A DNA stretch of 64,000 bases from contig NZ_JAUTBL010000001.1 in the NCBI RefSeq assembly GCF_030819275.1, forward strand, positions 856,001-920,000, given 5' to 3'. The translations under genes and the position numbers were made by a program. The notes below the pieces were generated by a model, which worked only from the letters and a program-made list of their open reading frames with translations, had not been told where the DNA came from and did not search any database. This DNA is from Agrobacterium larrymoorei (GTDB lineage: Bacteria; Pseudomonadota; Alphaproteobacteria; Rhizobiales; Rhizobiaceae). How positions within the stretch are numbered: position 1 is the stretch's first letter; every line of letters starts with the position of its first letter. This document shows positions 39,038-59,473 of the stretch, piece by piece.

Positions 39038-39038
39038 G

Positions 39039-40654: not shown

Positions 40655-40788
40655 CACGCCCTGATCGCTCGCTGTGACGCGACCCGGAAAACAATGGGCG
40701 TCAGCCTACCTCGATAAAGAAGGATGGCAATTTCTGCCCATTTTATGATCGAAAATTTTCTTGCCTAAAGAGTACTCAGCAAATTATG

Positions 40789-40804
40789 GTAATATTCACG
40801 CAAA
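40789..40804 (+). promoter_or_regulatory. Shared 16-base motif, copy 1 (upstream of PanE-like gene)
   Basis: GTAATATTCACGCAAA ends 17 bases before the PanE-like start codon. It matches GTAACATTCACGTAAA upstream of iacH (42716-42731) at 14 of 16 positions, at a very similar distance from the start. Two similar motifs at two operon heads of the same catabolic region suggest a common operator. The binding protein is unknown. Confidence 0.5.
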
Positions 40805-40821
40805 AACGTGGAGGGACCGAT

Positions 40822-41850: not shown

Positions 41851-42577
41851 CGGCAAGACCGAAGCCGAACTGCGCGTGCAACTTGCCGACTTCTACCACT
41901 TGGTCAGCTATCTCGGCTGGACCGAACTCATCTTCAACCATATTTCGGTCCGGATACCCGGACCGGATCACGTTTACCTCGTCAATCCTTTCGGGCTTCA
42001 CTATGACGAGGTGACGCCGGACAATCTCGTCAAGGTCGGCGTGGACGGCAAACTCGTTGAGGATAACGGCTATAAGGCCAATCCCGCTGGATTTGCGTTG
42101 CATGGCGTGATTCACCAACATCGCCCGGATGTCGGTTGCGTCGCACATACGCACACCACGCCTATATCGGCAATTACGCTGAAGGAAAGCGGCTTCGAAC
42201 ACGACAGTTTCTATGGCGCCCAGCTCTACGGACGCGTCGCCTATCATGCATTCGAGGGCATCACGCTCTACGATGATGAACGGGAACGCATGCTGGCCAG
42301 CCTTGGCGATAAAAATGTTCTGGTGCTGCGCAATCACGGCATTGCGGTGGCAGAGGCCGACATTCCCACGACCTTCATGTTGCTCTGGACCGTTCAGCGT
42401 GCAGCAGAGATCCAATGCGCAGCCAACGCGCTGCCTGGCGCGAACACATCCCTGCCCCCGGCCATCATGGAAAAATGCGCAACGGACGCGCAGCGTTTGA
42501 TCGAAAAAGCAAGCTTTGCCCAGTTGCTGTTCGACGCCATGGTCCGAAAGATGAAACGCGACCGTCCGGCGCACTGA
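41822..42577 (+). CDS. Class II aldolase/adducin-family protein
   Basis: A 251-residue protein of the class II aldolase/adducin family (fuculose-phosphate aldolase, ribulose-phosphate epimerase fold). Metal-binding histidines are visible in VAHTHTTP and in the later RNHGIAVAEA motif. N-terminal LGWTELIFNHISVRIPGPDHVYLVNPFGLHYDEVTPDNLVKV is typical. It overlaps the PanE-like gene. It could cleave a hydroxy-acid intermediate or act as a decarboxylase or isomerase; its place in auxin breakdown is not established. Confidence 0.88.
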   Translation: MNAPFPELLNGKTEAELRVQLADFYHLVSYLGWTELIFNHISVRIPGPDHVYLVNPFGLHYDEVTPDNLVKVGVDGKLVEDNGYKANPAGFALHGVIHQHRPDVGCVAHTHTTPISAITLKESGFEHDSFYGAQLYGRVAYHAFEGITLYDDERERMLASLGDKNVLVLRNHGIAVAEADIPTTFMLLWTVQRAAEIQCAANALPGANTSLPPAIMEKCATDAQRLIEKASFAQLLFDAMVRKMKRDRPAH

Positions 42578-42750: not shown

Positions 42751-43947
42751 ATGCAAGACGCTCCGCGACCATTAGCGACACCCGCCGAAGCAAGCCGCCC
42801 GCAGGGCTTCGCCATCACCGTCCCGTTGGATCTCGGTGGGAATGGACCGACAGTTGTGGTGAAGGAATGCATCGCGATTGCCGGCCACCCGACGAGGAGC
42901 GGTTCCGAAGCGCTTGCCGGGGCGCCTATTTCCCCCGATCACGCAGCCGTGGTGCTCTCGGTTCTGGAGGCGGGTTGCCGCATTGTCGGACGCGCCAACA
43001 TGCATGAACTTGCCTTCGGCATGACAGGCGTGAACCGCTACCTCGGCACGCCTGTCAACCCCCGATGGCCGGACAGGATACCCGGCGGATCGTCTTCCGG
43101 TTCGGCCGTGGCCGTAGCCGCAGGTCTTTGCGATTTTGCAATCGGCACCGATACAGGAGGCTCGATCCGTCAACCCGCCTGCTGCTGCGGGGTTTACGGC
43201 TTCAAACCCACTTTTGGCCGAGTGAGCCGAGCAGGTGCCGAGCCCGCCGAAAGCTCACTCGATTGTATCGGCCCTTTTGCTGCCAATGCAACAATGTTGA
43301 CCCGCGCCATGAGCGCGATGGACCGCACGTTCACCGCGCAACATCTATCGCGCCCTCCCGTTCTCAAGCGCGTGAGAACGGGCATCGTGGATCCTGCGAT
43401 AGAAGCCGCGATGGATGTTGCACTCGCTGCCGCCGGACTGACGCCGGAGGAAATTGAACTGGAAGGACTATCCGCCGCCTACGACGCAGCCATTACCGTT
43501 ATCAATCGCGAAACAGCCAACGCATTCGGCGATCTGGCGCGCAGCACAGCACCGATGGGAGAGGATGTCCGCAACCGAATCCTTAACGCTGCGAAAACGA
43601 CGGATGAGGCGCTCGCCAACGCAGAAGCCGTGCGGGCCACTTTCACTGCTGCGGTCGATGCAGCGCTGGCTGGGGTCGATGCACTCATATTGCCGGCCAT
43701 GCCGGTCGTACCGCCGACACTTGCAGAAGCACAGGATCCGGCAGCCGTGCTGCCGCTGACCCGGTTGATCCGGCCATTCAATCTTTCCGGCCATCCGGCG
43801 CTTACCGCGCCGCTTCGAACGACGCAGAACCTTCCGGCAGGATTTCAACTCATTGGCGCAAAGGGAATGGACACGCTGCTGTGTGCCATTGCCGAATGGC
43901 TTGAGGAGCGCATCGAAGGACGCAACACAGAGAAGGTGATCGAGTGA
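42751..43947 (+). CDS. iacH: Amidase-family protein, IacH-like
   Basis: A 398-residue amidase-signature enzyme, somewhat shorter than the usual 450-500. The Ser-Ser-Lys triad is visible: Lys38 (VVVKE), the Ser cluster at 114-116 (GGSSSGS) and Ser138 (GTDTGGSIR). In known iac loci IacH is an amidase-like protein dispensable for growth on indole-3-acetic acid (IAA); release of IAA from amide conjugates has been suggested. It is the first gene of the operon, and its stop overlaps the iacA start (TGATG). The shared regulatory motif lies just upstream. Confidence 0.85.
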   Translation: MQDAPRPLATPAEASRPQGFAITVPLDLGGNGPTVVVKECIAIAGHPTRSGSEALAGAPISPDHAAVVLSVLEAGCRIVGRANMHELAFGMTGVNRYLGTPVNPRWPDRIPGGSSSGSAVAVAAGLCDFAIGTDTGGSIRQPACCCGVYGFKPTFGRVSRAGAEPAESSLDCIGPFAANATMLTRAMSAMDRTFTAQHLSRPPVLKRVRTGIVDPAIEAAMDVALAAAGLTPEEIELEGLSAAYDAAITVINRETANAFGDLARSTAPMGEDVRNRILNAAKTTDEALANAEAVRATFTAAVDAALAGVDALILPAMPVVPPTLAEAQDPAAVLPLTRLIRPFNLSGHPALTAPLRTTQNLPAGFQLIGAKGMDTLLCAIAEWLEERIEGRNTEKVIE

Positions 43948-45092
43948 TGGATCAGGTCTCTTCGCCAAATCCTGTTAAACCGGTGACGCTTGCAGCCACG
44001 CTCGATGAAATTCGCGCCCGCCGTCACGAATTCGAAGCCCTCGGCCATATCCCGCTCGACATGGTGGAGAAATTGCAGGCAATCGGCTGTTACCGCGCTT
44101 TCGTGCCGAAGGAGCTTGGCGGCGACGCCCTGAGCCCTGCCGAGTTTTGTGCCCTCATCGAGACGCTGTCCCAAGCCGACGCCTCCACAGGCTGGGTGGC
44201 AAGCTTCGGGGTCTCCGCAACCTATCTCTCCGCCCTTCCGCCGGAGACCTTTCGTGCCATCTATGCCGCCGATCCAGACAGCGTATTTGCCGGGGCTTTG
44301 TTTCCTCCGCAGCCTGCCAGGCGCATCGATGGCGGCCTGTCGGTCAGCGGACGGTGGAAATACTGCTCTGGCTGCATGGGCGCCTCGCTCATCGGAGCCG
44401 GGGTCACTCTTGCGGACGGTGCGGAGGCGGCCCTCCCACGCATGGCGATCATGCCGCGCGCAGCCGTCCGCATCGAGCAGACCTGGAAAACCACCGGTCT
44501 GGCGGGCACCGGCAGCCACGATATCGTCGCTGAAGACGTCCATGTTCCTGAAGACTGGACTTTCGTGCGCGGCGGCCCGTCACGCCAGGACGCGCCCGCA
44601 TTTCGCTACCCCGCCATGGCGCTCGCGGCCCAGGTGTTGGCCGTCGTTTCCCTTGGCGCGGCGCGTGAAGCACTCGATCATATACGCGCTGATGCCGGCA
44701 GAGTGTCGATCACCGGAGGCCCAACGACAGCGGCGCGCCCATGGTTGCAGGCAGACTTTGCCCGCAGCGAGGCGACGCTGAGGGCGTTGCGATCCGTCTT
44801 CTACGATACGATCGACGAGGCGTGGCAATGTCTCTTGCGTGGGGACAGCATTGACCGAGACCTGCATACGCGTCTGCGCCTCGTCGCAACCCAGGCCGCG
44901 CATGGGGGTGCGGATGTGGCGCGCGCCGCCTTCTACATGGGCGGAACCGGCGCTATCGCCAAGGGTCACATCCTGTCTCGAACCATGATGGATACCGCCG
45001 CCGTCGCCCAGCATGCCTTCATGGCTGAAGGCACCTGGACTGCGGCCGGCGCCGCATTGCTGAACCAGCCGACAATGCCGGGCTATCCTTAA
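43947..45092 (+). CDS. iacA: Flavin-dependent monooxygenase, acyl-CoA dehydrogenase fold (IacA)
   Basis: A 381-residue protein with the acyl-CoA dehydrogenase fold used by two-component flavin monooxygenases (HpaB/HsaA/DszC group). Features are RAFVPKELGGDALSPAEFCALIETLSQADASTGWVASFG, WKTTGLAGTGSHDIVAEDVHVPEDW and the C-terminal MGGTGAIAKGHILSR. IacA attacks the indole ring of IAA using reduced flavin supplied by a partner such as IacG, and with IacE gives 3-hydroxy-2-oxindole-3-acetate-type products. The ATG at 43947 overlaps the amidase stop. Identity as IacA rests on fold plus the full set of iac neighbours. Confidence 0.88.
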   Translation: MDQVSSPNPVKPVTLAATLDEIRARRHEFEALGHIPLDMVEKLQAIGCYRAFVPKELGGDALSPAEFCALIETLSQADASTGWVASFGVSATYLSALPPETFRAIYAADPDSVFAGALFPPQPARRIDGGLSVSGRWKYCSGCMGASLIGAGVTLADGAEAALPRMAIMPRAAVRIEQTWKTTGLAGTGSHDIVAEDVHVPEDWTFVRGGPSRQDAPAFRYPAMALAAQVLAVVSLGAAREALDHIRADAGRVSITGGPTTAARPWLQADFARSEATLRALRSVFYDTIDEAWQCLLRGDSIDRDLHTRLRLVATQAAHGGADVARAAFYMGGTGAIAKGHILSRTMMDTAAVAQHAFMAEGTWTAAGAALLNQPTMPGYP

Positions 45093-45120
45093 TCTCCGCC
45101 CCTGACCGAGAGGACATCCT

Positions 45121-45477
45121 ATGACCGAAAAGCCGATCCGCACTCTCTTCTGCATCGCCGTGCTCCAGAATTTCTTCGATCTGCCCTCCGCCGATATCGG
45201 GGTCGTTTGGAAAGCAACCGGCAAAATGCTGTCGGGCATCGCCAACCTTCCGGGTGTCACCATTCTCGGCACCCTTGACGATGACGAAACCATGGTCGGG
45301 ACCTCCCCGAACGGCTGGCCATGGACATGCTATATCCTCGCCGACTGTCCGGACCGGGAAACCGTGCGGGCGGCCTGCAATCTCTTCCGGACCATCGAAG
45401 TGGGCGAACACCGGCTGTGGAAGTACCTGCGGGTCGAAGCCCGGATGGGCCGCGTTCTGGAGATTCCCGCGCTGTGA
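45121..45477 (+). CDS. iacB: IacB-like small protein of unknown function
   Basis: A 118-residue protein without an assigned enzyme class; its size and likely ferredoxin-like alpha/beta fold fit the IacB family found in all iac loci. Recognisable segments are TLFCIAVLQNFFDLP and VTILGTLDDDETMVGTSPNGWPWTCYILADCP. The stop overlaps the next start (GTGA), showing coupling. I assign IacB from position directly after iacA and from size; a role in protecting or channelling the IAA oxidation intermediate is possible but unproven. Confidence 0.75.
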   Translation: MTEKPIRTLFCIAVLQNFFDLPSADIGVVWKATGKMLSGIANLPGVTILGTLDDDETMVGTSPNGWPWTCYILADCPDRETVRAACNLFRTIEVGEHRLWKYLRVEARMGRVLEIPAL

Positions 45478-46037
45478 CGTCTGTTCAGGATGCAATTGCC
45501 CGTCGCCTCGGGCTTCTGGAAGCGGAGAGCGCGATCAGGGCCTGCCTGTCCGACTATATGGACATTTGCGACCGCATGGACGAGACGACGGACCTTGCCC
45601 CGCTCGGTGCCCTTTTCACCCGCGATGCGGTTTGGATGGGCGGAGGCGGACGCTACGGCAAGGACTTCGGCAGTCACGAAGGGCGCGAGGCGATCATCGC
45701 CTGGTTGTCGCGCTTTTGCACGACGCCACCGCACTTTGCCATGAATGCGCATTTCCTCGGCTCAGAGGCAATACGGGTTTTGAGCGACCGCACCGCGACA
45801 GGCCGGTGGATGATGTTACAGACGCCGACCTTCGCGAATGGCGAGAGCTACCTGATGGCAGCCCGACTGCAGATCGGTTTTGCCTTTGAGGAGGATCGAT
45901 GGCGCATGGCGCATTTTCACACGACCAACCTCTATGCCAGACCCGTTTCCTCCTGGGACCAGAACGTGCCTATTCCGAAACCGCTGACCGCCGCCGCTCC
46001 CTTCACGGTCGCCGCCACATACAAGGAACCGTCCTGA
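45474..46037 (+). CDS. iacI: SnoaL-like (NTF2-fold) protein, IacI-like
   Basis: A 187-residue NTF2/SnoaL-fold protein (AIRACLSDYMDICDRMDETTDLAPLGALFTRDAVWMGGG, then HFAMNAHFLGSEAIRV). IacI proteins are thought to act on an unstable ring-oxidation intermediate. The GTG at 45474 is chosen because it overlaps the iacB stop and gives a normal N-terminus; the frame is open upstream to 45321. The stop overlaps the iacC start by one base. A second, frameshifted relative occurs at 55969-56533. Confidence 0.82.
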   Translation: MTSVQDAIARRLGLLEAESAIRACLSDYMDICDRMDETTDLAPLGALFTRDAVWMGGGGRYGKDFGSHEGREAIIAWLSRFCTTPPHFAMNAHFLGSEAIRVLSDRTATGRWMMLQTPTFANGESYLMAARLQIGFAFEEDRWRMAHFHTTNLYARPVSSWDQNVPIPKPLTAAAPFTVAATYKEPS

Positions 46038-47302
46038 TGCTCGACATTTTGAATACCAGCCCTGACTGGTCCGGACTCGTCAAGCCCGACCACGTCGATA
46101 CGCCAATGTATGAAGACCCGGCCATTTTCGAGGCCGAGATGGACAAGATATTCAGTCGGACATGGGTCTGGGTGGCCCATATATCCGAAGTGCCCGACAA
46201 GGGATCATTCACGCTGAGCTATGTTGGCACCCAGCCCGTCATCGTCAGCCGGGACCGCAAGGGTGACGTCCATGTGATGGTCAATCGGTGTCGGCATCGT
46301 GCCGCAACGGTTTGCGAAATCAAACGAGGCAAGACGTCGTCGTTCCAATGCCCCTATCACGGTTGGGGATACGCGCTCGACGGCTCCTTGCGCGGCGTCC
46401 CTTACACCGAAGGCTATGCCGACGACTTCGATAAATCCAGCTACGGCCTGAAGAGGTTGAAGGTCGGCATCTATAACGGCATGATCTTCGCGAGTTTCAA
46501 CATGGATGTCGAACCGCTCGAGGATTTTCTAGGAAACGCCCGAAAATGGATCGATCTTTTCATGAAGCAGGGCGGGGGCTTTCCCGTCAAAGTCAATGGT
46601 GAGCATCAATTCCGCTTCCCCGGAAACTGGAAGATCCAGCTCGAGAACACCACGGACGCCTATCACTTTCCGGTGGTGCATAAGTCATTCCTGCAGTCTC
46701 TGGACGCGGAAGCGGAAAAGCAGTTCTCATTCCTCGAGGGCGAGGGCTTCGTGGAAGATCTCGGCAACGGCCATTCAGTGATGGTGATGATGCCGGAACT
46801 GATCGATCTTGACGAAAACCTCGATGCTCCGATCCCCGAACGTTTCGAAGAGCTGGCCGAGGAGTTGCGCGCCGATTATGACGAAGCGCAAGTCCGCCGG
46901 ATCGTCCGCGCCGTCGGTGGGACGGGCTTCAACCTCAACCTCTTCCCGAATGCGGCCTGCTCCTTGTCGTTCTTCCGGATCTTGCGCCCTATCTCCGTCA
47001 AGGAAACAGCCATCCGCCACATTGCCATCGGCATGGATGGCGGCCCCGAGGCGGGCAACCGCATGAGGTTGCGCATCCATGAACATTTCCAGGGGCCGAT
47101 GGGTTTCGGCAGCCCCGACGACGCCGAGGTCTGGGAACGCGTCCAGCGCGGCAGTGCGGGGGGGCCTGACCTTCCCGTCATGGTCAACAGGGGCTTGGGC
47201 ATTGAGAAGCCAAGCGAAAACGGTCTGCCGGTCGGCGATGTCAGCGCCGAGACCGGCATGCGCGGCGCTTACCGCCAGTGGAAAAGGATGATGCAGGGAT
47301 GA
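46037..47302 (+). CDS. iacC: Rieske aromatic-ring oxygenase alpha subunit (IacC)
   Basis: A 421-residue Rieske non-heme-iron oxygenase large subunit. The Rieske cluster ligands are Cys85, His87, Cys105 and His108 (CRHR...CPYHGW). The mononuclear iron site is in DAYHFPVVHKS near residue 217. It oxygenates the oxindole product formed by IacA and IacE, on the way to catechol, with IacD as small subunit and IacF as electron donor. The ATG at 46037 overlaps the iacI stop; the open frame to 45899 is inside iacI. Relatives are anthranilate and salicylate oxygenases, but the flanking genes fix the role. Confidence 0.92.
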   Translation: MLDILNTSPDWSGLVKPDHVDTPMYEDPAIFEAEMDKIFSRTWVWVAHISEVPDKGSFTLSYVGTQPVIVSRDRKGDVHVMVNRCRHRAATVCEIKRGKTSSFQCPYHGWGYALDGSLRGVPYTEGYADDFDKSSYGLKRLKVGIYNGMIFASFNMDVEPLEDFLGNARKWIDLFMKQGGGFPVKVNGEHQFRFPGNWKIQLENTTDAYHFPVVHKSFLQSLDAEAEKQFSFLEGEGFVEDLGNGHSVMVMMPELIDLDENLDAPIPERFEELAEELRADYDEAQVRRIVRAVGGTGFNLNLFPNAACSLSFFRILRPISVKETAIRHIAIGMDGGPEAGNRMRLRIHEHFQGPMGFGSPDDAEVWERVQRGSAGGPDLPVMVNRGLGIEKPSENGLPVGDVSAETGMRGAYRQWKRMMQG

Positions 47303-47796
47303 ATGAAATGCCAAAGATCGATCAGGTCATTCCCCTGCAGCAGGCGATTGAGTTCCTGTGGGCGGAAGCCGATATTCTTGACAAGCCGGACTATGACCGC
47401 TGGCTTCAATTGTGGAACCGCGATGGCCACTACGTCATTCCCATCGATCCGGAGACGGAAGATTTCGCCTCAACGCTCAACGTTGCCTATGACGACGCGC
47501 AGATGCGCAAGCTGAGGGTCGAGCGCTTGCAGGGCGGGTTTTCGATATCGGCAGCGCCGCCGGCGAAAACCGTTCGAACTATCTCGCGCTTCGTAGCCGA
47601 ACAGAATGCGCCGGGGACACTCACCATCCGGTCCGCCTTGCATCTCGTCGAAGACAAGTTCGGACGTCAGCGGGTCTTCGCGGCGAACGTCACCCACCGG
47701 CTAGTCGTGACGAATGACGGGCTGAAAATTCGTGACAAAGTCATCCGACTGCTCAACTCCGACGGGGTGCTGACATCCATCAGCTACCTTCTCTGA
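47299..47796 (+). CDS. iacD: Aromatic-ring oxygenase beta subunit (IacD)
   Basis: A 165-residue NTF2-fold small subunit of ring-hydroxylating dioxygenases (QQAIEFLWAEADILDKPDYDRWLQLWNRDGHYVIPI, then RTISRFVAEQ). It would stabilise the alpha trimer. The ATG at 47299 overlaps the iacC stop (ATGA), with GCAGGG upstream. It is directly followed by the SDR gene after 14 bases. Confidence 0.92.
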   Translation: MNEMPKIDQVIPLQQAIEFLWAEADILDKPDYDRWLQLWNRDGHYVIPIDPETEDFASTLNVAYDDAQMRKLRVERLQGGFSISAAPPAKTVRTISRFVAEQNAPGTLTIRSALHLVEDKFGRQRVFAANVTHRLVVTNDGLKIRDKVIRLLNSDGVLTSISYLL

Positions 47797-47810
47797 GCGG
47801 AGGCAAGCTC

Positions 47811-48572
47811 ATGACCACACCTTTACCGGATGTCATTCAGACCGCTGTAATTACCGGGGCTGCTTCCGGCGTCGGCGCCGACATCGCCCGCGCGTTGCAC
47901 ACGGCGGGTTTTCGCGTCGTGATCACCGATATCGATATGGAGGCTGCTGGGAAACTTGCTCTCGAACTCGACCTCGCGGGAGAGACAGCCGTTACCGCAA
48001 CGCTCGATGTCAATGATCCAGCCGCATTCCAGGACGTTCTGGACAAGATCGTGGATCGATGGGGGTCTGCGGAGGTTCTGGTCAACAATGCCAGCGTTAC
48101 CGTCGCAAAGCCCGTGCTGGAGATTCTGCCGGAGGAGTTCAACGCCGTGCTGGCGACGAACGCCGGAGGCACCTTCGCTGGCAGCCAGGTTTTCGGGCGC
48201 CATTTCAAGCTGCGTGGCTATGGCCGCATCATCAACATGGCATCGCTCGCCGGCCAGAATGGCGGCACCGCCACGGGAGCGCATTACGCTGCCTCGAAAG
48301 GCGCGATCCTCACCCTGACCAAAGTCTTCGCCCGCGATCTCGCACCCTTCGGCGTCACCGTCAACGCCATCGCACCCGGACCGATGGACACGCCGATGGT
48401 CCATCGGCTGATCCCCGAAGACAAGCTTGCCGGTCTGGTTGCGGGCATTCCTGTCGGACGCATCGGTGATCCGAAGTTCGTTGCCGAACTTGTGGCGTTA
48501 TTGGCCGGGCCATCGGCCGCCTTCGTCAACGGCGCATGCTGGGACGTCAATGGCGGGCTTTTCATGCGATGA
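47811..48572 (+). CDS. iacE: Short-chain dehydrogenase/reductase (IacE)
   Basis: A 253-residue SDR. The cofactor motif is TGAASGVG (residues 15-22), the structural motif is LVNNAS, and the catalytic Ser and Tyr-Lys pair are in NMASLAGQ and YAASKG. The C-terminal PGPMDTPM and VNGACWDVNGG are typical. In IAA degradation IacE works with IacA to give the hydroxylated oxindole-acetate. Spacing to the neighbouring genes is short (14 and 43 bases). The precise step is taken from knowledge of the iac pathway, not from sequence alone. Confidence 0.9.
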   Translation: MTTPLPDVIQTAVITGAASGVGADIARALHTAGFRVVITDIDMEAAGKLALELDLAGETAVTATLDVNDPAAFQDVLDKIVDRWGSAEVLVNNASVTVAKPVLEILPEEFNAVLATNAGGTFAGSQVFGRHFKLRGYGRIINMASLAGQNGGTATGAHYAASKGAILTLTKVFARDLAPFGVTVNAIAPGPMDTPMVHRLIPEDKLAGLVAGIPVGRIGDPKFVAELVALLAGPSAAFVNGACWDVNGGLFMR

Positions 48573-48615
48573 GACAGTTGCACCAAGATGACATTGACCA
48601 TGACAGGAGAGGCCA

Positions 48616-49590
48616 GTGGCCAACGCCCCCTTTCAACTGAAGATCACCGACCGGCATGACGACCGCGGCAATATCATGCGGCTGACCCTGGCAGCGGCCG
48701 ACGGTTCGCCGTTACCGCCCTTCGATGCTGGATCGCATCTCGACCTTCGCATTCAGGATAGCGCACAGGGCATCGACCTCTGGCGTCAATACTCGCTCTG
48801 TGGCGATCCTTCAGAGCACGGCGTCTATCGGCTTGGAATTCTGAACGACCCGGCGAGCCGAGGCGGCTCGCAGGCGCTACACCGGATCGCCCGGCCAGGC
48901 CTCGTACTGGAGGCTAGCCATCCCCGCAATCATTTTCCGCTTGCACCTGATGCGCGTCGCTCCATCCTGATCGGCGGCGGCATCGGCGTCACGCCGATGA
49001 TCGCGATGGCCTGGACTCTTGAAGCCAAAGGATCCGATTTCATTCTTCACTACTGCACAAGAGATCCGGAACGCACAGCCTTCCTTTCCGACTTGCAAGG
49101 CTGGAGTTTTGCCTCGAAAATCAGATGCCATCACGACAATGGCCCTGATACGCAACGCTTCGATGTGCTTCGCGACATCCCGGAACCGGATGGCGGGACG
49201 CATATCTATGTCTGCGGCCCGCAAGGCTTCATGGATATGGTGATTGACGCGGCACAGAATGCCGGCCATGCGAACGAAAACATCCACCGCGAATATTTCA
49301 GCGCCGATATCGACACCAGTGGTGGTGCCTTCGAGGTGGTTGCGCAGACCTCCGGCGTCACGGTCGAGGTCGGCGCGGACGAAACCATTGTCAAAGCCCT
49401 TGCCCGGGTGGGGGTGAAGGTGGAGGTCAAGTGCGAAGAAGGGATCTGCGGCACCTGCCTCACCGACATTATCGAGGGGCTTCCCGACCATCGCGACGCT
49501 TTTCTGACGGAGGATGAGCGGCAGGACGGAACGGTGATGATGCTGTGCTGCTCACGGGCGAAGACGTCACGTCTCGTACTGGATATCTGA
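48616..49590 (+). CDS. iacF: Ferredoxin-NAD(P)H reductase with C-terminal [2Fe-2S] domain (IacF)
   Basis: A 324-residue phthalate-dioxygenase-reductase-type protein. The FMN-binding domain shows FDAGSHLDLRI and LWRQYSLCGD. The NAD domain has IGGGIGVTPMIAM and YVCGPQGFMDMV. The C-terminal plant-type ferredoxin has the Cys cluster in KCEEGICGTC with a fourth Cys in MMLCCS. It passes electrons from NAD(P)H to the IacCD oxygenase. The start is a GTG at 48616 preceded by GGAGAGG. Confidence 0.93.
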   Translation: MANAPFQLKITDRHDDRGNIMRLTLAAADGSPLPPFDAGSHLDLRIQDSAQGIDLWRQYSLCGDPSEHGVYRLGILNDPASRGGSQALHRIARPGLVLEASHPRNHFPLAPDARRSILIGGGIGVTPMIAMAWTLEAKGSDFILHYCTRDPERTAFLSDLQGWSFASKIRCHHDNGPDTQRFDVLRDIPEPDGGTHIYVCGPQGFMDMVIDAAQNAGHANENIHREYFSADIDTSGGAFEVVAQTSGVTVEVGADETIVKALARVGVKVEVKCEEGICGTCLTDIIEGLPDHRDAFLTEDERQDGTVMMLCCSRAKTSRLVLDI

Positions 49591-49597
49591 GGTGCCG

Positions 49598-50095
49598 ATG
49601 ACCGACGCTCCGACTGACGCCAAATTATTCCGTTCCGCCATGAGCCGGCTTGGCGCCGCTGTCAACATCATCACGACCGACGGTCCGGCGGGGCGCCACG
49701 GCATGACTGCTTCCGCCGTCTGTTCCGTCACGGACACGCCGCCGACGGTGCTTGTCTGCGTCAACCGCGACAATCGATCTCACCGGTTTTTCGTCGAGAA
49801 CCGCGCGCTTTGCATCAATGTGCTGGCGGCCCGTCATCAGGCACTTTCCCTCGATTTTGCCAGGCAAACCGTTGAGGACCGTTTCGCCGGTGCCGGCTGG
49901 TCGACTTTGGTGACTGGGGCTCCCGCGCTTGAGGACGCGACCGTCGCTCTCGATTGCCGGATATCCGCGAGACAGGAAGTTGGAACGCATTCGGTGTTTT
50001 TCTGCGCGGTTCAGGCGACGCGGATATGGGACGGCGCGGCCGAGGGTTTGATCTGGTTCGACCGCCAATTTCACCCGCTTGCCGCAACAGGTTAA
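49598..50095 (+). CDS. iacG: Flavin reductase (IacG)
   Basis: A 165-residue flavin reductase of the HpaC/DszD-like group (FRSAMSRLGAAVNIITTDGPAGRHGMTASAVCSVTDTPPTVLVCVN, then NVLAARHQALSLDFA). It makes FMNH2 or FADH2 for a two-component monooxygenase, here most likely IacA. The ATG at 49598 has GAGGTG as ribosome-binding site; a GTG at 49592 is in frame. It is the last gene of the iac operon and converges on iacR with 31 bases between the stops. Confidence 0.9.
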   Translation: MTDAPTDAKLFRSAMSRLGAAVNIITTDGPAGRHGMTASAVCSVTDTPPTVLVCVNRDNRSHRFFVENRALCINVLAARHQALSLDFARQTVEDRFAGAGWSTLVTGAPALEDATVALDCRISARQEVGTHSVFFCAVQATRIWDGAAEGLIWFDRQFHPLAATG

Positions 50096-50126: not shown

Positions 50127-50600
50127 TCAGCCCTCGCCAAGCCGATCAAACACCCGCTTCAGAAGACTGTTCATCTGCGCAAGCTCCTCGCTGCCAATGT
50201 CGGCGAAAGAGCGCTGGAACACCGCCTCGACCAGAACGCGGGCGCGACGGGCCTGCGCGCGTCCCTCTTCAGTCAACGTTACCTCCGTCACCCGCGCATC
50301 GGCCTTCCGGCTTCGGACAGTGACCAGCCCGTCCGTCGTCATGCGCTGGATAATTTTAGTGGTGGTGTTCAATCGGATGATGCAGAAATCCGATATCTCG
50401 GAAATACTGAGATAAGCATCCTCCGTGAGCGACGACAGGACGCGCCAACGCGGCACATCGAGACCGATCGGACGCAAGGCCTTCTCGACAGCAAGGACGT
50501 AGCGGGCATTGACGCGTGTGATCCAGTAGTACGGCCATTCGCTCTTGTGAAATGCGGGTTCAATCTGTCCAAGGGCGTCGGGATCGGTTTTTGTCTGCAT
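50127..50600 (-). CDS. iacR: MarR-family regulator (IacR)
   Basis: A 157-residue MarR-type repressor. The winged helix is visible in VPRWRVLSSLTEDAYLSISEISDFCIIRLNTTTKIIQRMTTDGLVTVRSRKADARVTEVTLTEEG. In iac loci IacR represses the operon and is released by IAA or a metabolite. It is transcribed away from the livK-like gene, with 150 bases between the starts, a natural site for its operator. It is convergent with iacG. Assignment rests on family and position. Confidence 0.9.
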   Translation of the reverse strand: MQTKTDPDALGQIEPAFHKSEWPYYWITRVNARYVLAVEKALRPIGLDVPRWRVLSSLTEDAYLSISEISDFCIIRLNTTTKIIQRMTTDGLVTVRSRKADARVTEVTLTEEGRAQARRARVLVEAVFQRSFADIGSEELAQMNSLLKRVFDRLGEG

Positions 50601-50750
50601 GTACGCTTATGCCTTCACTTTTGGCAGATCGGATACATCACCTGCTCTCACGGAGCAAACAATACGAACAATCCTGGGCCGAAACCGCGGTCTCAGGCTT
50701 GATTGCCATCTAGAAAACTAAAAAACGACCAACCAGAGGATCAAGAACAC

Positions 50751-51935
50751 ATGCCACACGTCACTGCCTCCTTAAAGCTAAAAGTCACCCCCCTGTCGAA
50801 ACGCCTGATGATGTCGTTGATGGTCGCTACCCTCTGGGCTGGCGCCGCAGACGCCCAGATCAAAGTCGGCGTTGTCACATCCTCCACCGGGCCGATCGCG
50901 CTGGTCGGTATCCCGCAGAAGAACACTGTTCCTCTACTGCCCAAATCTGCGGCAGGCCAAACCATCGAATATATCCCGCTTGATGACGGTAGTGATCCGA
51001 CGGCCGCCGTATCCGCCTTCAAGAAGTTGATCGAAGAGCAGAAAGTCGATGCGATCATCGGCCCTTCTGGTTCGCCCAGTGCCATGGGCGTCATCGCATT
51101 CGCAGCCGAGTCCGGCGTCCCGATGCTGGCGCCTGTCGGAACGGCCGCGGTCATCCTGCCAATGGATGACAAGAAGAAGTGGGTCTTCAAAACCACTCAG
51201 AACGACGATCTCGTGGCTAGGGCGCTGGTGGCGAACATGGTCAAGGCCGGCGTAAAAACGGTCGGGTTCATCGGCACCGCCGACGCGTTTGGAGACAACT
51301 GGCAGAAGGTCTTTACCGCCGAAGCCGGAAAGTTTGGCATAAAGGTCGTCGCTGCGGAGCGTTTCCAGCGCCAAGATACTTCACTTACCGCGCAGAGCCT
51401 GAAAATTCTCGCATCAGCTCCCGAGGCGGTTCTGATCGCGGCACCGGGCAGTTCATCAGTCCTGCCACAGACAACCCTCTACGATCAGGGTTATCGCGGC
51501 AAAATCTATCAGACCCACGGTGCGGCACTTCCCGATTTTCTCAAGCTGGGCGGCAAGAAGGTGGAAGGTACGATCCTGGCGGCCAGTCTCATGCTGGTCC
51601 TAGATGAAATGCCGGACTCCAATCCTTCAAAAAAGGTCGCGGTCGATTATGTCGCTGCCTATGAAAAGCTCTACGGCTCCAAACCCGCGACCTTCGGCGC
51701 CAATGTTCTCGATGCCGGACTGCTTCTCGAACGAGCGATCCCAGTCGCGCTGAAGAGCGGCGAACCGGGAACGCCGGGCTTTCGCGTAGCGCTGCGGGAC
51801 GCGCTGGAGAATGTGAAGGAATTGCCGGGCGCACAAGGCATTTACAACATGACGCCAGCCGACCACAGCGGTTTCGACGAGCGAGGCCTTGAGATGATCA
51901 CGGTTAAAAACGGCAACTGGGCACTGTTGAAGTAA
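50751..51935 (+). CDS. Liv-type ABC transporter substrate-binding protein
   Basis: A 394-residue type I periplasmic binding protein (LivK/Peripla_BP_6 class). A signal peptide ends near AGAADAQIKV, followed by VGVVTSSTGPIALVGIPQKNTVPLLP and later GSFSVLPQ-like and DAGLLLERAIPVALKSG motifs. The ATG at 50751 has AGAGGA upstream. Proteins of this class next to aromatic catabolic operons often bind aromatic acids, so IAA or a related acid is a reasonable guess. It begins a four-gene importer, divergent from iacR. Confidence 0.9.
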   Translation: MPHVTASLKLKVTPLSKRLMMSLMVATLWAGAADAQIKVGVVTSSTGPIALVGIPQKNTVPLLPKSAAGQTIEYIPLDDGSDPTAAVSAFKKLIEEQKVDAIIGPSGSPSAMGVIAFAAESGVPMLAPVGTAAVILPMDDKKKWVFKTTQNDDLVARALVANMVKAGVKTVGFIGTADAFGDNWQKVFTAEAGKFGIKVVAAERFQRQDTSLTAQSLKILASAPEAVLIAAPGSSSVLPQTTLYDQGYRGKIYQTHGAALPDFLKLGGKKVEGTILAASLMLVLDEMPDSNPSKKVAVDYVAAYEKLYGSKPATFGANVLDAGLLLERAIPVALKSGEPGTPGFRVALRDALENVKELPGAQGIYNMTPADHSGFDERGLEMITVKNGNWALLK

Positions 51936-52102
51936 GCCTGCCTCCTGCGTCGGGCGCTCGCCGGTGAGACCTGACGCAGAAATACGCTCAAGAAGAAATA
52001 CGGGAACAGCAAAATGGATCACCTGAAACAGCATCGACCGGCAACGGGAGTGTGTCGCGCCTCGCATCGTCATCCAGGCTTTCGGCAGCGAGGAGATATC
52101 GC

Positions 52103-53140
52103 GTGAACCTCGTCGTCGCCATACTGCTTGGACAGGACGGGTTGACCAACGGCGCGATCTACGCCCTGTTAGCGCTCGCCATTCTTCTCGTTTTCTCCGT
52201 CACCCGCATCCTGCTTATTCCTCAAGGCGAGTTCGTGTCCTTCTCGGCGCTCACGATGGCCGCCATGCAAGCCGGCAAGCCGGTGCAGCTCGGCTGGCTG
52301 CTGCTTGCCTTTTGCGCAACCGCCATCCTCATGGATCTCTACACCGGATTGCGGGACAACGGGCGTTGGCTGATCAAGCCCACCATGATCTGCATCTCCA
52401 TCTACGCGCTCGCCCTGACGCTCGTGACCTTTTTCCTTCCGTTGGCCAGTGCTGGCGCTGCTATTCAGGCAGCCCTCACCACCGGTCTCCTCATTGCGTT
52501 CGGCCCGCTTTTCTATCGCGTCGTCTTCCAGCCACTCGCCTCCGCTCATTCGCTGGTGCTTCTCATCGTTTCCATTGCATCCCACGTGGCGCTTGTGGGC
52601 ATCGGCCTCCTGATGTTCGGCCCCGAAGGAATGCGAACGGAACCCTTTACCGATATAAGCCTCAACATCGGCCCGGCCATGATCAACGGCCAGTCCGTGG
52701 CCGTGGTGGTGCTATCGCTGGCGTTGATCGGCATGCTGTACGCCTTCTTTGAAAAGACGCTCTATGGCAAAGCCTTGCGCGCCACCGCCGTCGATCGCCT
52801 TGGCTCTCAGCTGGTGGGAATCTCTCCCGCCCTTGCGGGTCAAGCAAGTTTTACGCTAGCGGCGCTAATTGGAGCACTGTCGGGCATATTGATCGCTCCA
52901 CTGACGACCATCTATTACGACTCCGGCTTCATCATCGGCCTGAAAGGCTTTGCCGGCGCCATCATCGGCGGCCTCGCCAGCTATCCGCTCGCCGCTATCG
53001 GCGCGGTGGTTTTGGGTCTCGCCGAGGCATTTTCTACATTCTGGGCCAGCAGTTACAAGGAAGTGATCGTCTTTACTCTGCTGCTGCCCGTTCTTTTATG
53101 GCGTTCGCTGGCTCACAAGCGGGTGGGAGACGGCGAATGA
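52103..53140 (+). CDS. Liv-type ABC permease (LivH-like)
   Basis: A 345-residue permease with about eight membrane helices. The family signature GLTNGAIYALLALAILLVFSVTRILLIPQGEFVSFSA is at the N-terminus, and KGFAGAIIGGLASYPLAAIGAVVLGLAE near the C-terminus. The GTG at 52103 has AGGAG upstream. The stop overlaps the next start (ATGA). It forms the membrane pore with the permease half of the fused LivM-LivG protein. Confidence 0.93.
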   Translation: MNLVVAILLGQDGLTNGAIYALLALAILLVFSVTRILLIPQGEFVSFSALTMAAMQAGKPVQLGWLLLAFCATAILMDLYTGLRDNGRWLIKPTMICISIYALALTLVTFFLPLASAGAAIQAALTTGLLIAFGPLFYRVVFQPLASAHSLVLLIVSIASHVALVGIGLLMFGPEGMRTEPFTDISLNIGPAMINGQSVAVVVLSLALIGMLYAFFEKTLYGKALRATAVDRLGSQLVGISPALAGQASFTLAALIGALSGILIAPLTTIYYDSGFIIGLKGFAGAIIGGLASYPLAAIGAVVLGLAEAFSTFWASSYKEVIVFTLLLPVLLWRSLAHKRVGDGE

Positions 53141-54948
53141 CGCTACGCCACCTTCGCATGCTCGGGCTTCTTGCCGCCGTTCCGCTGCTGGCGCTTTCCG
53201 CTATCCTCCTGCCCGGCCACCAGATCACCATCGCCAACAACATCGGCATCTATGCGCTTGCGACACTCGGCCTCGTGCTCATGACAGGCGTCTGCGGCAT
53301 GACGAGCTTCGGTCAAGCGGCCTTCGTGGGGATCAGCGCCTATACGACCGCGGCAATCGCCACCGGCGCGGGTCTGCCACCGGCGCTTGAATTCCTCCGC
53401 TACAACCCGCTGCTCAGCCTTGTCGCAGGACTGTTCCTCACCCTTGGTGTCGCCGCCATTCTGGGTGGCCTTACGTTGCGTCTCTCCGGACACTATCTGC
53501 CGCTTGGAACCATCGCCTGGGGCCTGTCGATCTACTATCTGTTCGGCACGAGCGAAACGCTGGGCGGATATTCCGGGCTTTCCGGCATCCCGTCCCTGGA
53601 ATTGTTCGGGCTGCGTTTCGACAAGGCATATCTACTGTTTCTGCTGATCTGGTTTGCCGTCCTCTGTGGCATCGCGATCATGTTCAATCTGCTGGACTCG
53701 CGAGAGGGAAGAGCCATTCGTGCCCTCAAAGGCGGCCAGTCAATGGCCGAGTCAATGGGCGTTAATACCTTTCGCGCCAAGATGGCGGCCTTTCTCGTCG
53801 CGGCGGCTTTCGCGGCCGTCTCCGGTTGGCTCTATGCCTACACCCAGCGTTTCGTCAATCCGACGCCCTTCGGCCTGCAATACGGCATCGAATACATGTT
53901 CATGGCCCTGATCGGCGGCATCGGCACAGTGGGAGGCGCAGTGGTGGGAGCAGCCACGACGACGTTTATGAAAGAGTGGCTACAGAACCTGCTGCCGAAC
54001 ATTCTCGGTCAGGGCGGCAACTATGAAGCCATAGTTTTCGGCATCATCATCGTACTGCTGATGCAGTGGATGCCGGGAGGCATCTGCGGCACCCTCCTTG
54101 CGCGGTTGACCCGCGGCGGCAACCTCAAGCCGGTGGCTACGACGACCTCCGATGTCGTGCCTCTCGATCGCCGCGATCAACCTGACAAGACAGCGCCGAT
54201 CCTCGATGTCCGCGGCATCACGCGCAAATTCGGCGGTCTTGTCGCCAACAGTGATATCTCCTTCGCCATCGACGCGGGTGAGATTCTCGCTGTGATAGGC
54301 CCGAACGGTGCCGGCAAAAGCACGCTCTTCAATCAGGTGTCTTGCGTCGACCGACCGACATCTGGCGAGGTGATATTCCGTGGTCAGGCAATCACTGGTC
54401 TTGGCGCGCGTCACGTGGCGAAAGCAGGCATGAGCCGCACCTTCCAGCATGTGAAGCTTCTGCCAGACATGAGCGTGGTGGAAAATGCGGCGATCGGCGC
54501 CCATTTGCGAGGCAAGCACGGCCTTATTGCCTCCATTTTGAGGCTGGACCGCAAGGAGGAGGTACAAATTTTGGCGGAAGCCACCCGGCAGCTGAAGCGC
54601 GTAGGTCTTGGGGATCATCTCTACACAGAGGCCGGAAGTCTGGCGCTCGGTCAGCAACGAATTCTGGAAATTGCCCGCAGCCTGTGCGCCGATCCCTGCC
54701 TGCTGCTGCTGGACGAACCTGCTGCCGGCCTCCGTTTCAAGGAAAAGCAGGCGCTCGCCGACCTGCTCAGAAAGCTGAAGGCGGAGGGCATTGCGATCCT
54801 TCTCGTCGAGCACGATATGGATTTCGTAATGGGGCTGGCCGATCGCGTCATGGTAATGGACTTCGGCCAGAAGATCGCCGAAGGCCTTCCTGCGGATATT
54901 CAGTCCAATCCGAAGGTGATCGAAGCCTATCTGGGAGGCGCCGAATGA
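53137..54948 (+). CDS. Fused Liv-type permease-ATPase (LivM-LivG)
   Basis: A 603-residue fusion. Residues about 1-335 are a LivM permease ([33 protein letters not shown] and [18 protein letters not shown]). A linker of about 30 residues follows. Residues about 355-603 are a LivG ATPase with Walker [10 protein letters not shown], Walker [12 protein letters not shown] and H-loop VEHDMD. The usual LSGG is replaced by LALGQQR in the signature position. The ATG at 53137 overlaps livH, and the stop overlaps livF. Such fusions are known in Liv systems. Confidence 0.93.
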
Positions 54949-55706
54949 CCGGTACAGCACCCTCACCCTTGTTGGCTGTTTCGGGCCTATCCGTGTCCTA
55001 CAGCAAGATTGAAGCTGTAAGCGGTCTCGATCTCGAGGTCGGTGAAGGACAGATCGTCTCCGTCATCGGGCCGAACGGCGCTGGCAAGACAACCCTCCTG
55101 TCGGCGATCATGGGAATCCTGCCCTCACGCGGGACGATCCGCATCTCAGGCGAGGCTGTCGAGGCAGGGACGATCAGGGACCGGATCGATCGAGGGCTCG
55201 GTTTGGTTCCGGAAACGCGGGCGCTGTTCGGCACGATGAGCGTAGAAGACAATCTCAGGCTCGGCGCTTTCCGTTTCCACCGCTCTGCAGCGAGTAAACG
55301 TGCCGACACGCTGGAAGAGGTCTATACCCTGTTCCCGCGCCTGAAGGAGCGTCGAGCACAGATCGCCGCCACGCTATCGGGTGGTGAGCGGCAGATGCTT
55401 GCGCTCGGTCGGGCCCTGATGGGCCGACCTCGTCTATTGATGCTGGATGAACCGAGTCTCGGCCTCGCACCGCTGATCGTGAGGGATGTTTTCCGTATCA
55501 TCGCCGATCTAAGACGCAAGGGCGTTTCTATATTGCTCATCGAGCAAAACGCCCGCGCCGCATTGAAGATCGCCGACTATGCTTATGTGCTCGAACTTGG
55601 ACGCATCGCGCTGCAAGGCCCCGCCTCGGAACTCGCCCAGGACCCACGCGTGGTCGCAGCCTATCTCGGCATGACCAGCCAGCATCAGGAGATGCTCGCC
55701 ACATGA
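54945..55706 (+). CDS. Liv-type ABC ATP-binding protein (LivF-like)
   Basis: A 253-residue ATPase. Walker A is GPNGAGKTT, signature LSGGERQM, Walker B LLMLDEPSLGLAP and the H-loop-like position is IEQNA, as usual for LivF. The ATG at 54945 overlaps the stop of the fused gene (ATGA); an upstream open frame is an artefact of overlap. It completes the importer of the auxin locus. Confidence 0.93.
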   Translation: MTGTAPSPLLAVSGLSVSYSKIEAVSGLDLEVGEGQIVSVIGPNGAGKTTLLSAIMGILPSRGTIRISGEAVEAGTIRDRIDRGLGLVPETRALFGTMSVEDNLRLGAFRFHRSAASKRADTLEEVYTLFPRLKERRAQIAATLSGGERQMLALGRALMGRPRLLMLDEPSLGLAPLIVRDVFRIIADLRRKGVSILLIEQNARAALKIADYAYVLELGRIALQGPASELAQDPRVVAAYLGMTSQHQEMLAT

Positions 55707-55968
55707 CGCTCGCCGCGCCCAAACTGTACAGTGTCGGCGGGCAATCGTTTGCCGCTGCGAAGCGCCAATAGAAGATTGCCAGCAACGAAGAGCGCTAGGC
55801 GCGTCGTACCGGGAATGTCTGTGAACAGGCCTCCAATCAAAGGGAAGAATATCCATTCCGGATATGATCGGCCTGGGCCTGGAGCGAATGCCTGAGCAAT
55901 ACTCTGACGACCGCGACGGGGACCGCCCTGTCGCGCCCGGTTTAAAAACCAGATTCGAGGAAATGAAA
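55707..55968. other. Short spacer with possible decayed coding sequence
   Basis: The interval between the livF-like gene and the SnoaL relic has no intact gene. On the minus strand, pieces in one frame read IPEWIFFPLIGGLFTDIPGTTRLALFVAGNLLLA, which resembles part of a major-facilitator-type membrane protein but has no start or conserved signature. It may be a remnant. Confidence 0.3.
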
Positions 55969-56533
55969 ATGCTGTCAGTTGAAGAACAGATCGCGAGCTT
56001 GACCCGGAAAGTCGATGCGTTGCAAGCAGAAGCAGATATCCGCCGCATCGTAAGCCGCTACATGTTTCTGTGCGATGTTCCGATGCCCGAACCGGACGCC
56101 GAGGGAGGAAAGCGGATCGATCTCATCCTGGAACTCTTCAGCGATGATGCCCAATGGGAGGGCGTCGGCGCCTATTACGACAATCAGTTCGGCAAGAAGC
56201 AGGGCAAGGCAGCACTGCGCCAGCACTTCGAAGGTTTTTTCGCACCACGCGAACCGCAGATGATTCTCAACTGCCACTATCTGACATGTGAGCATATCGC
56301 GGTGAATGGTGACGGCGCGGAGGGGAACATGGGTTCACTTTCAGCCCTGGATCTTCAGCGACGGCACCTCGCTGCTGCGCTCCAGCCGGCTCTATAACGC
56401 CTTCAAGAGAGAAAACGACGTGTGGAAAATGTCACGATATCGAACCGAGAACGTCTTCGTGGCGCCCCTGCCGAAAGAGTGGTGGGACTCCATTCCTGCA
56501 GAATCGATCCTCATGCGAGATGCGGCGGCCTGA
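55969..56533 (+). pseudogene. SnoaL/NTF2-like gene interrupted by a frameshift
   Basis: The first part reads MLSVEEQIASLTRKVDALQAEADIRRIVSRYMFLCD through HYLTCEHIAVNGDGAEG. Near 56326-56331 the frame breaks. The expected continuation TWVHFQPWIFSDGTSLLRSSRLYNAFKRENDVWKMSRYRTENVF runs in another frame to the stop at 56533. Removing one A in the GGGGAACATGG stretch restores one protein of about 187 residues. It is an NTF2-fold relative of the IacI-like protein upstream. It could be a sequencing error or a real loss of function. An alternative ATG is at 55963. Confidence 0.8.
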
Positions 56534-56649: not shown

Positions 56650-58305
56650 ATGAACGAGTACGAGATCAGCCGGATCATAGCGCTTGCGGACCGGCTGACG
56701 GCCCGTTTTCGTGTGGCCTTCCCCGAAGCGGGACAGAATAGCGTCTGGCAAATCGTCAGCAATCTCGTCCGCCTGCATCTCGAAGGCCATATGATAACGC
56801 TGACCAGCCTTATCGCTGCGTCCGGATTGCCCTATGGCACAGCGATCCGGTGTATACACGCACTTGAGGCGCGAGGCATGATCGGCCGGCAAGCGCGCAG
56901 CCGTAGCGGCAAGAGCTTCGTCTATTTTCCCACCCCCTCGCTTTTGAAAAACTTCGAGGCCTATGCCGAAGACGTCAAGCAAGAGTTGTCTCGAATGGTT
57001 GTGGAGGAACCGCGGCTCGACGCAACCAAATATTTTTTTGGCGGGGACCATCAACGCCACGCCCTGACGGAGCGTCAACTTCGGGGACTGCGCGATATAG
57101 AAGGCGTGGAAACACTGCAATTTCTGCTGCATAACGATTGGTACTTCATGTCGCTGCGTCACGTGTGGTCGGATTTTCGCAGCCGTATCGGCCCATCCGG
57201 CAATTTCACTCTTGTCGACCGGCAAACATTATATGAAACGATCAGGCGCAATGCCGAGCAACCGGTTTCCGGTGCCGACATCATCGCGATTGCGCCGTCA
57301 TGGGTGGGAGAGATGGCCGCTGGCGCCATCATCGCGCCACCGGGGCAGCATCAGCTTTGCGCAGACGTCGCCAGCCCACTGCATGCCATGCTGGCACCGT
57401 CAGGCCTCGAAATGGCCGTTCCTGCCTATGTGGCCATCGATCTGCTGGCCGTTCGCCGCGACCTTCTTGATGAAGAAGCCTTGAGCTATCCAACCAACCT
57501 TGATGCCGTCCTCGCCACGGCTCGGCAACTCCACACGCCGCGCCATAACCGTTACGGTATCGTCTGGGGCGGCAGTCGTGGGCTGGCGCTCGGGCACAGC
57601 TTCCTGTTCATCTTGTCATGCATGGGAGCGCAGTGGCCGCAAAACGGGGCCAATTCACTTGAGTCGGTTGCAACGTTTCTAACAGGAAGCGAAAGCGTGG
57701 CGGCATTCGAGTATTTGCGAATGCTGATCGAAGTCTCAGCTCCTGGCGTGTTGAATGGGGGGGCGGGGGAAACCCAGGCGGTGTTCGCCGCAGGATCAGC
57801 GGCGATGAGCTTTCTTTCTTCGCTGGATGCAACCCGCTTCGAACTCGACATAAATTCGAAGGTAAAGCACAGGGTCGCGTATCTTCCCCCTCCCATCGCA
57901 ACCCGTGGCCGCGGGAAGGTGCCCCTTGACGGCTTCTTTCTGGCGCTCCCGGCAAATCTTCCACCACCACGCCAAAAAACGGCCCAAGCCGTACTTGCGG
58001 CATTGGCATCGCCGGAAAGCACGGGCGTTGAAGAGGATGTAGGCCGGCTCCCCACCTCCTCACTCTTCAGCCTCATCCGAGATCCGGAACAGGCCAGAAA
58101 CTCTGCTATCCACGCCCTCATTGCCTCGCTCACGCGGCAGCACAAGCTCGTGGCGCCTTCTCCTATCCTACCCCCGCACGAAATCGTCGTTACTCAAATA
58201 TTGGGAGAACACCTACACGACGCTTTGGCCAACAATGCAAAAAACGGTACCGCAGCGCTCGCCTCGGCCGCAAATAAAATTCGATCCATAGGTTTAAACG
58301 CTTAA
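56650..58305 (+). CDS. Winged-helix domain fused to periplasmic-binding-protein-like domain (putative one-component regulator)
   Basis: A 551-residue protein without a signal peptide or membrane helix, so it should be cytoplasmic. Residues about 28-100 form a MarR/IclR-like winged helix: MITLTSLIAASGLPYGTAIRCIHALEARGMIGRQARSRSGKSFVYFP, with PYGTAIRCIHAL as likely recognition helix. Residues about 185-500 resemble a MalE/UgpB-type solute-binding protein (GADIIAIAPSWVGEMAAGAIIAPP, AVPAYVAIDLLAVRRDLLDEEALSYPTNLDAVLATARQL, GIVWGGSRGLALGHSFLFILSCMGA). Such a fusion would bind a ligand directly and change DNA binding. It lies at the end of the auxin/Liv cluster on the same strand. Function is inferred from architecture. 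Confidence 0.82.
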   Translation: MNEYEISRIIALADRLTARFRVAFPEAGQNSVWQIVSNLVRLHLEGHMITLTSLIAASGLPYGTAIRCIHALEARGMIGRQARSRSGKSFVYFPTPSLLKNFEAYAEDVKQELSRMVVEEPRLDATKYFFGGDHQRHALTERQLRGLRDIEGVETLQFLLHNDWYFMSLRHVWSDFRSRIGPSGNFTLVDRQTLYETIRRNAEQPVSGADIIAIAPSWVGEMAAGAIIAPPGQHQLCADVASPLHAMLAPSGLEMAVPAYVAIDLLAVRRDLLDEEALSYPTNLDAVLATARQLHTPRHNRYGIVWGGSRGLALGHSFLFILSCMGAQWPQNGANSLESVATFLTGSESVAAFEYLRMLIEVSAPGVLNGGAGETQAVFAAGSAAMSFLSSLDATRFELDINSKVKHRVAYLPPPIATRGRGKVPLDGFFLALPANLPPPRQKTAQAVLAALASPESTGVEEDVGRLPTSSLFSLIRDPEQARNSAIHALIASLTRQHKLVAPSPILPPHEIVVTQILGEHLHDALANNAKNGTAALASAANKIRSIGLNA

Positions 58306-59110: not shown

Positions 59111-59198
59111 GAGGTCACGGGATAGGACCAGCCGCGTTCGTCGGCGATTTGGCCTACTGAGGATCACTAGGAGAGAGCACCGTGCCAGCGCCAAAACG

Positions 59199-59232: not shown

Positions 59233-59251
59233 TTGAATTTCTTCGTCTATT

Positions 59252-59328
<77 letters not shown>

Positions 59329-59435: not shown

Positions 59436-59473
59436 CTTTGTTCGACTTGGATGTCGAGTAATCTTTAGAACTG

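Follow-up and report, generated by a model that had tools for sequence, protein, structure and literature searches.

A winged-helix/SBP_bac_1 fusion protein of Agrobacterium larrymoorei represents a family of predicted one-component regulators associated with ABC importers

The stretch of Agrobacterium larrymoorei DNA analyzed here comprises 64,000 nucleotides (NCBI RefSeq assembly GCF_030819275.1, contig NZ_JAUTBL010000001.1, positions 856,001 to 920,000) and is referred to as the window. Near its end lies a gene for a 551-amino-acid (aa) protein which joins a predicted winged helix to a solute-binding protein (SBP) domain of the SBP_bac_1 type. Its homologues form a family whose genes mostly lie beside ATP-binding cassette (ABC) importer genes and near a recurring 17-bp palindrome. 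In window coordinates, the gene and its parts are:

56650..58305, + strand: winged-helix/SBP_bac_1 fusion, 551 aa, predicted one-component regulator (ATG start; Pfam, homologues, AlphaFold2)
56740..56931, + strand: predicted winged helix-turn-helix (HTH), residues 31-94, with the recognition helix at ~62-74 and the wing at ~78-94
56935..57000, + strand: predicted inter-domain helix, residues 96-117 (AlphaFold2)
57094..58302, + strand: predicted type II periplasmic-binding-protein (PBP) domain (SBP_bac_1), residues 149-551

Pfam places SBP_bac_1 at residues 195-457 (56.2 bits, E 7.2e-15, cut-off 26) and HTH_IclR, below its cut-off of 22, at residues 49-80 (17.5 bits, E 0.0037). The only other Pfam match listed at E ≤ 1 is the sub-threshold DIP2311-like_C, and NCBIfam gives no match at E ≤ 1. 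In the AlphaFold2 model (pLDDT 79.5, pTM 0.69), a winged helix at residues 31-94 is followed by a helix at 96-117 and then by an SBP fold, residues 148-551 being predicted to share the fold of the SBP_bac_1 importer binding proteins 5iai, 4rya, and 6dtq. The first solved winged helices returned by Foldseek for the N-terminal domain were those of the MarR family (IadR, MepR, SlyA). Fifteen homologues span 93-100% of the query and are of similar size (551-606 aa). In a 16-row alignment, Y62, A65, and R67 are invariant, R83, G87, K88, S89, and F90 are kept in at least 90% of rows, and the putative recognition helix and wing rank among the best conserved parts of the protein. The full-coverage homologues and this conservation argue that the N-terminal half is no chance extension of the open reading frame (ORF). 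The domain matches and the model thus support a winged helix joined to a type II SBP, as the original prediction had proposed; that prediction depended on a type II fold at residues 185-500, which lies within the modeled domain, and the family search it suggested recovered homologues, most of the relatives examined having importer genes nearby.

Gene neighbors were surveyed in 51 family loci of 10-22 kb each; locus L034 was left out of this survey and included in the operator scans (52 loci). L130 and L131 overlap, L118 and L137 each carry two family genes, and two plain SBP relatives, L138 and L139, are excluded from family counts. A permease match was present in 44/51 family loci compared to 4/20 control stretches from the same genomes, and an Rbs-type permease, ATPase, and binding protein occurred together in 36/51 family loci and in none of the 20 controls. 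Among gene clusters, a permease cluster was the next commonest after the family gene itself (37 loci). In a frequent layout, genes for a Peripla_BP_4 binding protein, two BPD_transp_2 permeases, and an ATPase run divergently from the family gene, whose other flank codes for an SDR, an M24-peptidase-family protein, 2-oxoacid-dehydrogenase-like subunits, and an aldehyde dehydrogenase. In two Ochrobactrum loci (L032, L034) and in Aminobacter sp. MSH1, the family gene comes after an importer of the sugar type (in L032 with SBP_bac_1) and faces genes for YciI, a maleylacetate-reductase-type protein, and an intradiol dioxygenase. In the closest genomic relative found (L106, 44% identity), the regulator, a SnoaL-family gene, and an importer 64-74% identical to the one in the window all point in one direction, and PanE (48% identical) and aldolase (79%) genes are divergent from the family gene. 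Because the catabolic neighbors differ and importers recur, the pathway varies by member and the importer pairing is mostly kept.

No export or lipoprotein signal is visible in the fusion protein, judged from the hydropathy of relatives and, by eye, from its own N-terminus, in agreement with the original prediction. Among the family rows printed, which do not include L037-L044 and some of which start inside the protein, the highest 15-residue hydropathy mean within the first 60 residues is 1.49, with no signal-peptide-like core. The plain SBP relative L138 (8404-9741, - strand) has by eye a signal-peptide-like start; L138 and L139 are from small-genome bacteria, and their importer operon also holds, by eye, a regulator-like gene. 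We infer a cytoplasmic location for the fusion protein. If it were instead an importer binding protein with a structural N-terminal extension, working without DNA, its SBP_bac_1 match above the cut-off would be expected, as would the label “extracellular solute-binding protein” carried by 25 of the 30 listed plasmid records (32 found at E 1e-30). This is highly improbable given the lack of a visible export signal, the conserved winged-helix core and wing, and the nearby importers, many of which bring their own binding protein (a hit in 39/51 loci).

The predicted operator emerged from two discovery groups of loci. Upstream regions in small-genome rows carry the palindrome ATATTCAA-(A or T)-TTGAATAT in 10/10 cases, all close relatives, and Rhodobacteraceae-like rows have ATATCCA-N3-TGGATAT-like sites upstream of the family gene. 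The consensus ATATYCA-N3-TGRATAT, taken from these groups, is found with at most one mismatch in the 400 bp preceding the family gene in 20/52 loci, whereas 150 permuted half-sites average 0.013 and reach at most 1; outside the discovery groups it occurs in 6/33 loci. A weight matrix score of at least 15 is reached in 44/52 loci and 0/20 controls, and a matrix built from the discovery groups alone finds sites in 26/33 other loci (of which L048 and L050 share a 70% cluster with discovery loci) and 1/20 controls. As several loci are near relatives, clusters were also counted: the 52 loci form 24 clusters at 70%, 20 of which reach a score of 15. Of 75 sites scoring at least 15, 56 are outside supported ORFs, which span 58% of the sequence according to crude ORF calls in which antisense ORFs mask the family gene in some loci. 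Many sites have the family gene or importer/catabolic genes at most 150 bp away. These recurring palindromes and the importer linkage support the regulatory role first proposed for the protein.

Paired sites 21 bp apart were seen in 16/52 loci, 15 of them from one 70% cluster, and thus represent one lineage's habit; pairing is seen in L161 too. A second palindrome (AGAGATTTAATCTCT on the family-gene strand) lies between the operator and the divergent gene in L096, L098, and L099.

The palindrome could belong to another regulator, with the fusion protein acting elsewhere or not on DNA at all. Eight of the 52 loci do not reach a score of 15 (L119, at 14.6, is counted among them), and other regulators noted outside any systematic scan are an IclR-type gene annotated ~8 kb away in L160 and an AraC-type gene annotated in L161. 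However, many loci have sites immediately before the family gene, every other gene cluster occurs in fewer loci, and the recognition helix is conserved alongside the site. We therefore regard another owner as quite unlikely.

Two sites in the window match the operator, and the features around them are:

37904..37920, no strand: predicted operator 2, TTGTCCAAATTGGATAT, ahead of the operon for the NMT1-type importer (≤2 mismatches)
38015..40654, + strand: predicted target operon, coding for the binding protein, ATPase, and permease of an NMT1/SsuABC-type ABC importer; first-gene start likely 38099, by eye
40786..41850, + strand: PanE/ApbA-type reductase; start likely 40822, by eye; L106 homologue
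41822..42577, + strand: class II aldolase/adducin family protein; L106 homologue
42751..50095, + strand: iac-like cluster, given as context and unlikely to be the main target; kinds of gene compared with PMC11676955 (Table 3)
50127..50600, - strand: MarR-like gene flanked by the iac-like cluster and the Liv operon; candidate regulator (IacR type) of the former
50703..55706, + strand: branched-chain-amino-acid-type importer (Liv) operon, ending before predicted operator 1
55849..55865, no strand: predicted operator 1, ATATCCATTCCGGATAT, upstream of the SnoaL-family and regulator genes (≤1 mismatch)
55864..56397, + strand: SnoaL-family ORF directly upstream of the regulator; likely start ~55963, by eye

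The sites at 37904 and 55849 score highest in the 64 kb (22.4 and 21.6, the third site reaching 12.2), and none of 200 dinucleotide shuffles attains 21.6 (highest 21.0). Neither contributed to the weight matrix, and the discovery-group matrix gives them 20.4 and 20.9, respectively, with 11.0 for the third site. Across the 4.88-Mb genome, the site at 55849 is one of three places with at most one mismatch, and that at 37904 is one of 37 with at most two. If three mismatches are allowed, the loose pattern matches 13 places in the window, of which 10 lie elsewhere and have three mismatches. The site at 55849 follows the Liv operon, which ends at 55706, and precedes the likely SnoaL-family start (55963), ahead of the regulator; the NMT1-type importer has its likely start ~190 bp downstream of the site at 37904. 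In L106, a SnoaL-family homologue is next to the regulator gene, and in L032 and L034 one heads the importer operon. The frame of the SnoaL-family ORF in the window seems broken near 56330, a break which its L106 homologue does not have. Together, operator sites and gene neighbors point to the importer-PanE-aldolase operon and the regulator's own genes as targets, in place of the regions at 42.7 and 50.65 kb that the original prediction had put forward.

Another element, GTAAYATTCACGTA, occurs at 40789-40802 ahead of the PanE-like gene, at 42716-42729 ahead of the amidase gene, and in L106 (10741-10754) between the family gene and PanE. The form AGTAAYATTCACGT is rare, with one place in the genome at ≤1 mismatch. 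As a family operator, GTAAYATTCACGTA was rejected, since it does not fit the family matrix; promoter core and second operator are candidate readings.

Taken together, the fusion protein is probably a cytoplasmic one-component regulator that acts as a dimer on the 17-bp palindrome and responds to the cargo of the importer whose operon it is predicted to control. It would bind ATATYCA-N3-TGRATAT through a winged-helix dimer. The predicted site at 37904 would place the operon of the NMT1-type importer under its control, along with the PanE-like and aldolase genes, and that at 55849 its own SnoaL-regulator genes. An imported compound would close the SBP clamshell, and the signal may pass via helix 96-117 to the winged-helix dimer. 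MarR-like winged helices are mostly repressors relieved by ligand, and in some rows of the small-genome group the right half-site can be read by eye as the -35 box of the family gene promoter, with a TATAAT following 18 bp downstream. For these two reasons, an auto-repressed, ligand-relieved repressor is the favored mode of action. Autorepression is also reported for SgrR (PMC13060122).

The original prediction had assigned the protein to the auxin and Liv operons as a sensor of indole-3-acetic acid (IAA). The genes at 42751-50095 (amidase, flavin-dependent monooxygenase, SnoaL-like, Rieske dioxygenase alpha and beta, SDR, reductase, and flavin reductase) agree in kind with the iac genes in Table 3 of PMC11676955; no iac-named model is among the NCBIfam rows shown for the window scans. 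As an IAA sensor, the fusion protein would control the iac-like and Liv operons, and its gene does lie ~1 kb past the Liv operon and ~6.5 kb past the iac-like cluster. Moreover, amidase homologues adjoin the family gene in L032 and L034 too, and GTAAYATTCACGTA is common to the upstream regions of the PanE-like (40789) and amidase (42716) genes. However, a MarR-like protein is encoded at 50127-50600, with HTH_24 and HTH_27 above their cut-offs and MarR_2 at 27.6 bits in the first scan and 25.8 bits when isolated, just below the cut-off of 27. In the published iac/iad loci considered (PMC11630574 and PMC11676955), the regulators are of the MarR type, apart from two-component or LysR cases. By this analogy, the MarR-like gene is the natural IacR candidate, so the fusion protein more likely adjoins the auxin cluster than regulates it, barring a link between the pathways. 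Furthermore, the palindrome is absent at 42.7 and 50.65 kb, the site at 55849 comes after and not before the Liv genes, and the catabolic genes beside relatives differ widely. L106, L032, and L034 share no Rieske dioxygenase genes or Liv binding protein with the window; besides the SnoaL-family gene, they share the NMT1-type importer, PanE-like, and aldolase genes (L106) or the amidase (L032, L034). The MarR-like gene, the operator positions, and the relatives' contexts rule against auxin or Liv regulation as the principal role, and we consider it unlikely. Elsewhere in the window, a Liv permease and a Liv ATPase are joined in one 616-aa ORF (53098-54948), and Rfam places a cobalamin riboswitch at 10010-10199 on the - strand (133.7 bits).

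Full-length copies of the gene were found in 8/101 genomes among relatives (counted by coverage) and in 8/385 drawn from the class; copies occur in 2/39 genomes of the genus and, at E 1e-20, in 30/297 genomes at family rank, each count including the source genome. One of the 30, G741, lacks the N-terminal part: its family match (L134) begins at residue 165, and the winged helix is absent or out of frame. Another family has copies in 3/3 genomes, and a small-genome family (largest ~1.4 Mb) in 24/52 by manual count of full-length rows. Named carriers are two Ochrobactrum and metagenome-assembled genomes labelled Rhizobacter, Mesorhizobium, and Rhodobacteraceae. Among the plasmid records (H24-H53), gene surroundings were viewed for H24 and H36. 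A 158-aa open frame in G046 (C62:8889-9125) matches residues 39-118 only, at 35%, and may be an SBP-less winged helix or a fragment.

The 23S rRNA of the source genome is 98.1% identical, over 90% of the query, to an Agrobacterium salinitolerans record and 93.0% identical, over 100%, to a Rhizobium record, which makes the genome Agrobacterium-like. As the gene is rare in its own genus, it was probably acquired in the source genome. At 58692-63841, the window contains an integrase-core (rve) fragment followed by tRNA, 5S and 23S rRNA, and tRNA genes on the - strand; a cluster adjoining an rRNA operon and transposon debris fits an acquired island. When SBP domains of 29 family members and 16 plain SBPs are placed in one tree, two label changes are needed, and 10 plain SBPs fall inside the family on long branches. 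This sequence tree is compatible with one or two fusion events, and no single origin is claimed.

We lean towards a broader reading in which this is a widespread, unnamed alphaproteobacterial factor family that arose when a MalE-type carrier was captured into the cytoplasm behind a winged helix. Each member would sense what its neighboring ABC importer has taken up, acting through a single 17-bp operator code that is conserved even in 1.4-Mb genomes. If so, a family filed in databases as extracellular carriers would consist of intracellular gene switches with a readable operator, and in rhizobia, Rhodobacteraceae, and small-genome alphaproteobacteria many operons for import or catabolism would gain an assigned regulator. 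It would also offer a ready sensor scaffold, and because MalE-type domains are among the best known ligand-binding folds, cargo specificity is directly testable.

Several known systems share parts of this architecture. The importer proteins Arad_9887 (5iai), AVI_3567 (4rya), and MalE3 (6dtq), which have the fold of residues 148-551, are exported, and the winged helix of the fusion protein stands where SBP_bac_1 importer proteins have their export signal. MarR proteins supplied the first solved winged helices in the Foldseek search, but they are ~140 aa long and bind ligand near the dimer interface, whereas the fusion protein adds a separate clamshell of ~400 aa. The MarR domain is not among its Pfam matches at E ≤ 1, and 10 relatives score at most 20.1 bits for MarR/MarR_2 (cut-offs 24.6 and 27). 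LysR-type regulators such as CysB combine a winged helix with a type II PBP-like effector domain, which is shorter and belongs to other Pfam families; HTH_1 and LysR_substrate are not among the Pfam matches at E ≤ 1. Neither is a LacI HTH or type I PBP, the SBP_bac_1 domain and fold being found instead. The contrast with LacI drawn in the original prediction omitted the type II precedents, namely the LysR effector domain and SgrR/DsvR.

SgrR of E. coli and DsvR of Vibrio cholerae are cytoplasmic, and SgrR has an SgrR_N winged helix. They likewise carry an N-terminal HTH and a C-terminal solute-binding domain, as stated for the DsvR AlphaFold model in PMC13060122. The fusion protein is predicted to resemble SgrR in having both domains in one protein, with no visible export signal. 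SgrR_N and SBP_bac_5 are not among its Pfam matches at E ≤ 1, and the Rfam scan of the window found no SgrS at gathering scores (SgrS/SgrT and SetA were not otherwise sought nearby). Among the open-literature papers listed, none reports, judged by its title and the opening of its abstract, a winged helix with SBP_bac_1, apart from the SgrR-type paper (SBP_bac_5); this does not establish absence. SgrR/DsvR use an SBP_bac_5 sensor, whereas the fusion family has an SBP_bac_1 sensor, its own predicted operator, and a linkage to importer and catabolic operons. SgrR and DsvR are thus a precedent for an HTH joined to an SBP-family sensor, from which the fusion family, judged by its domain matches, differs in both domains.
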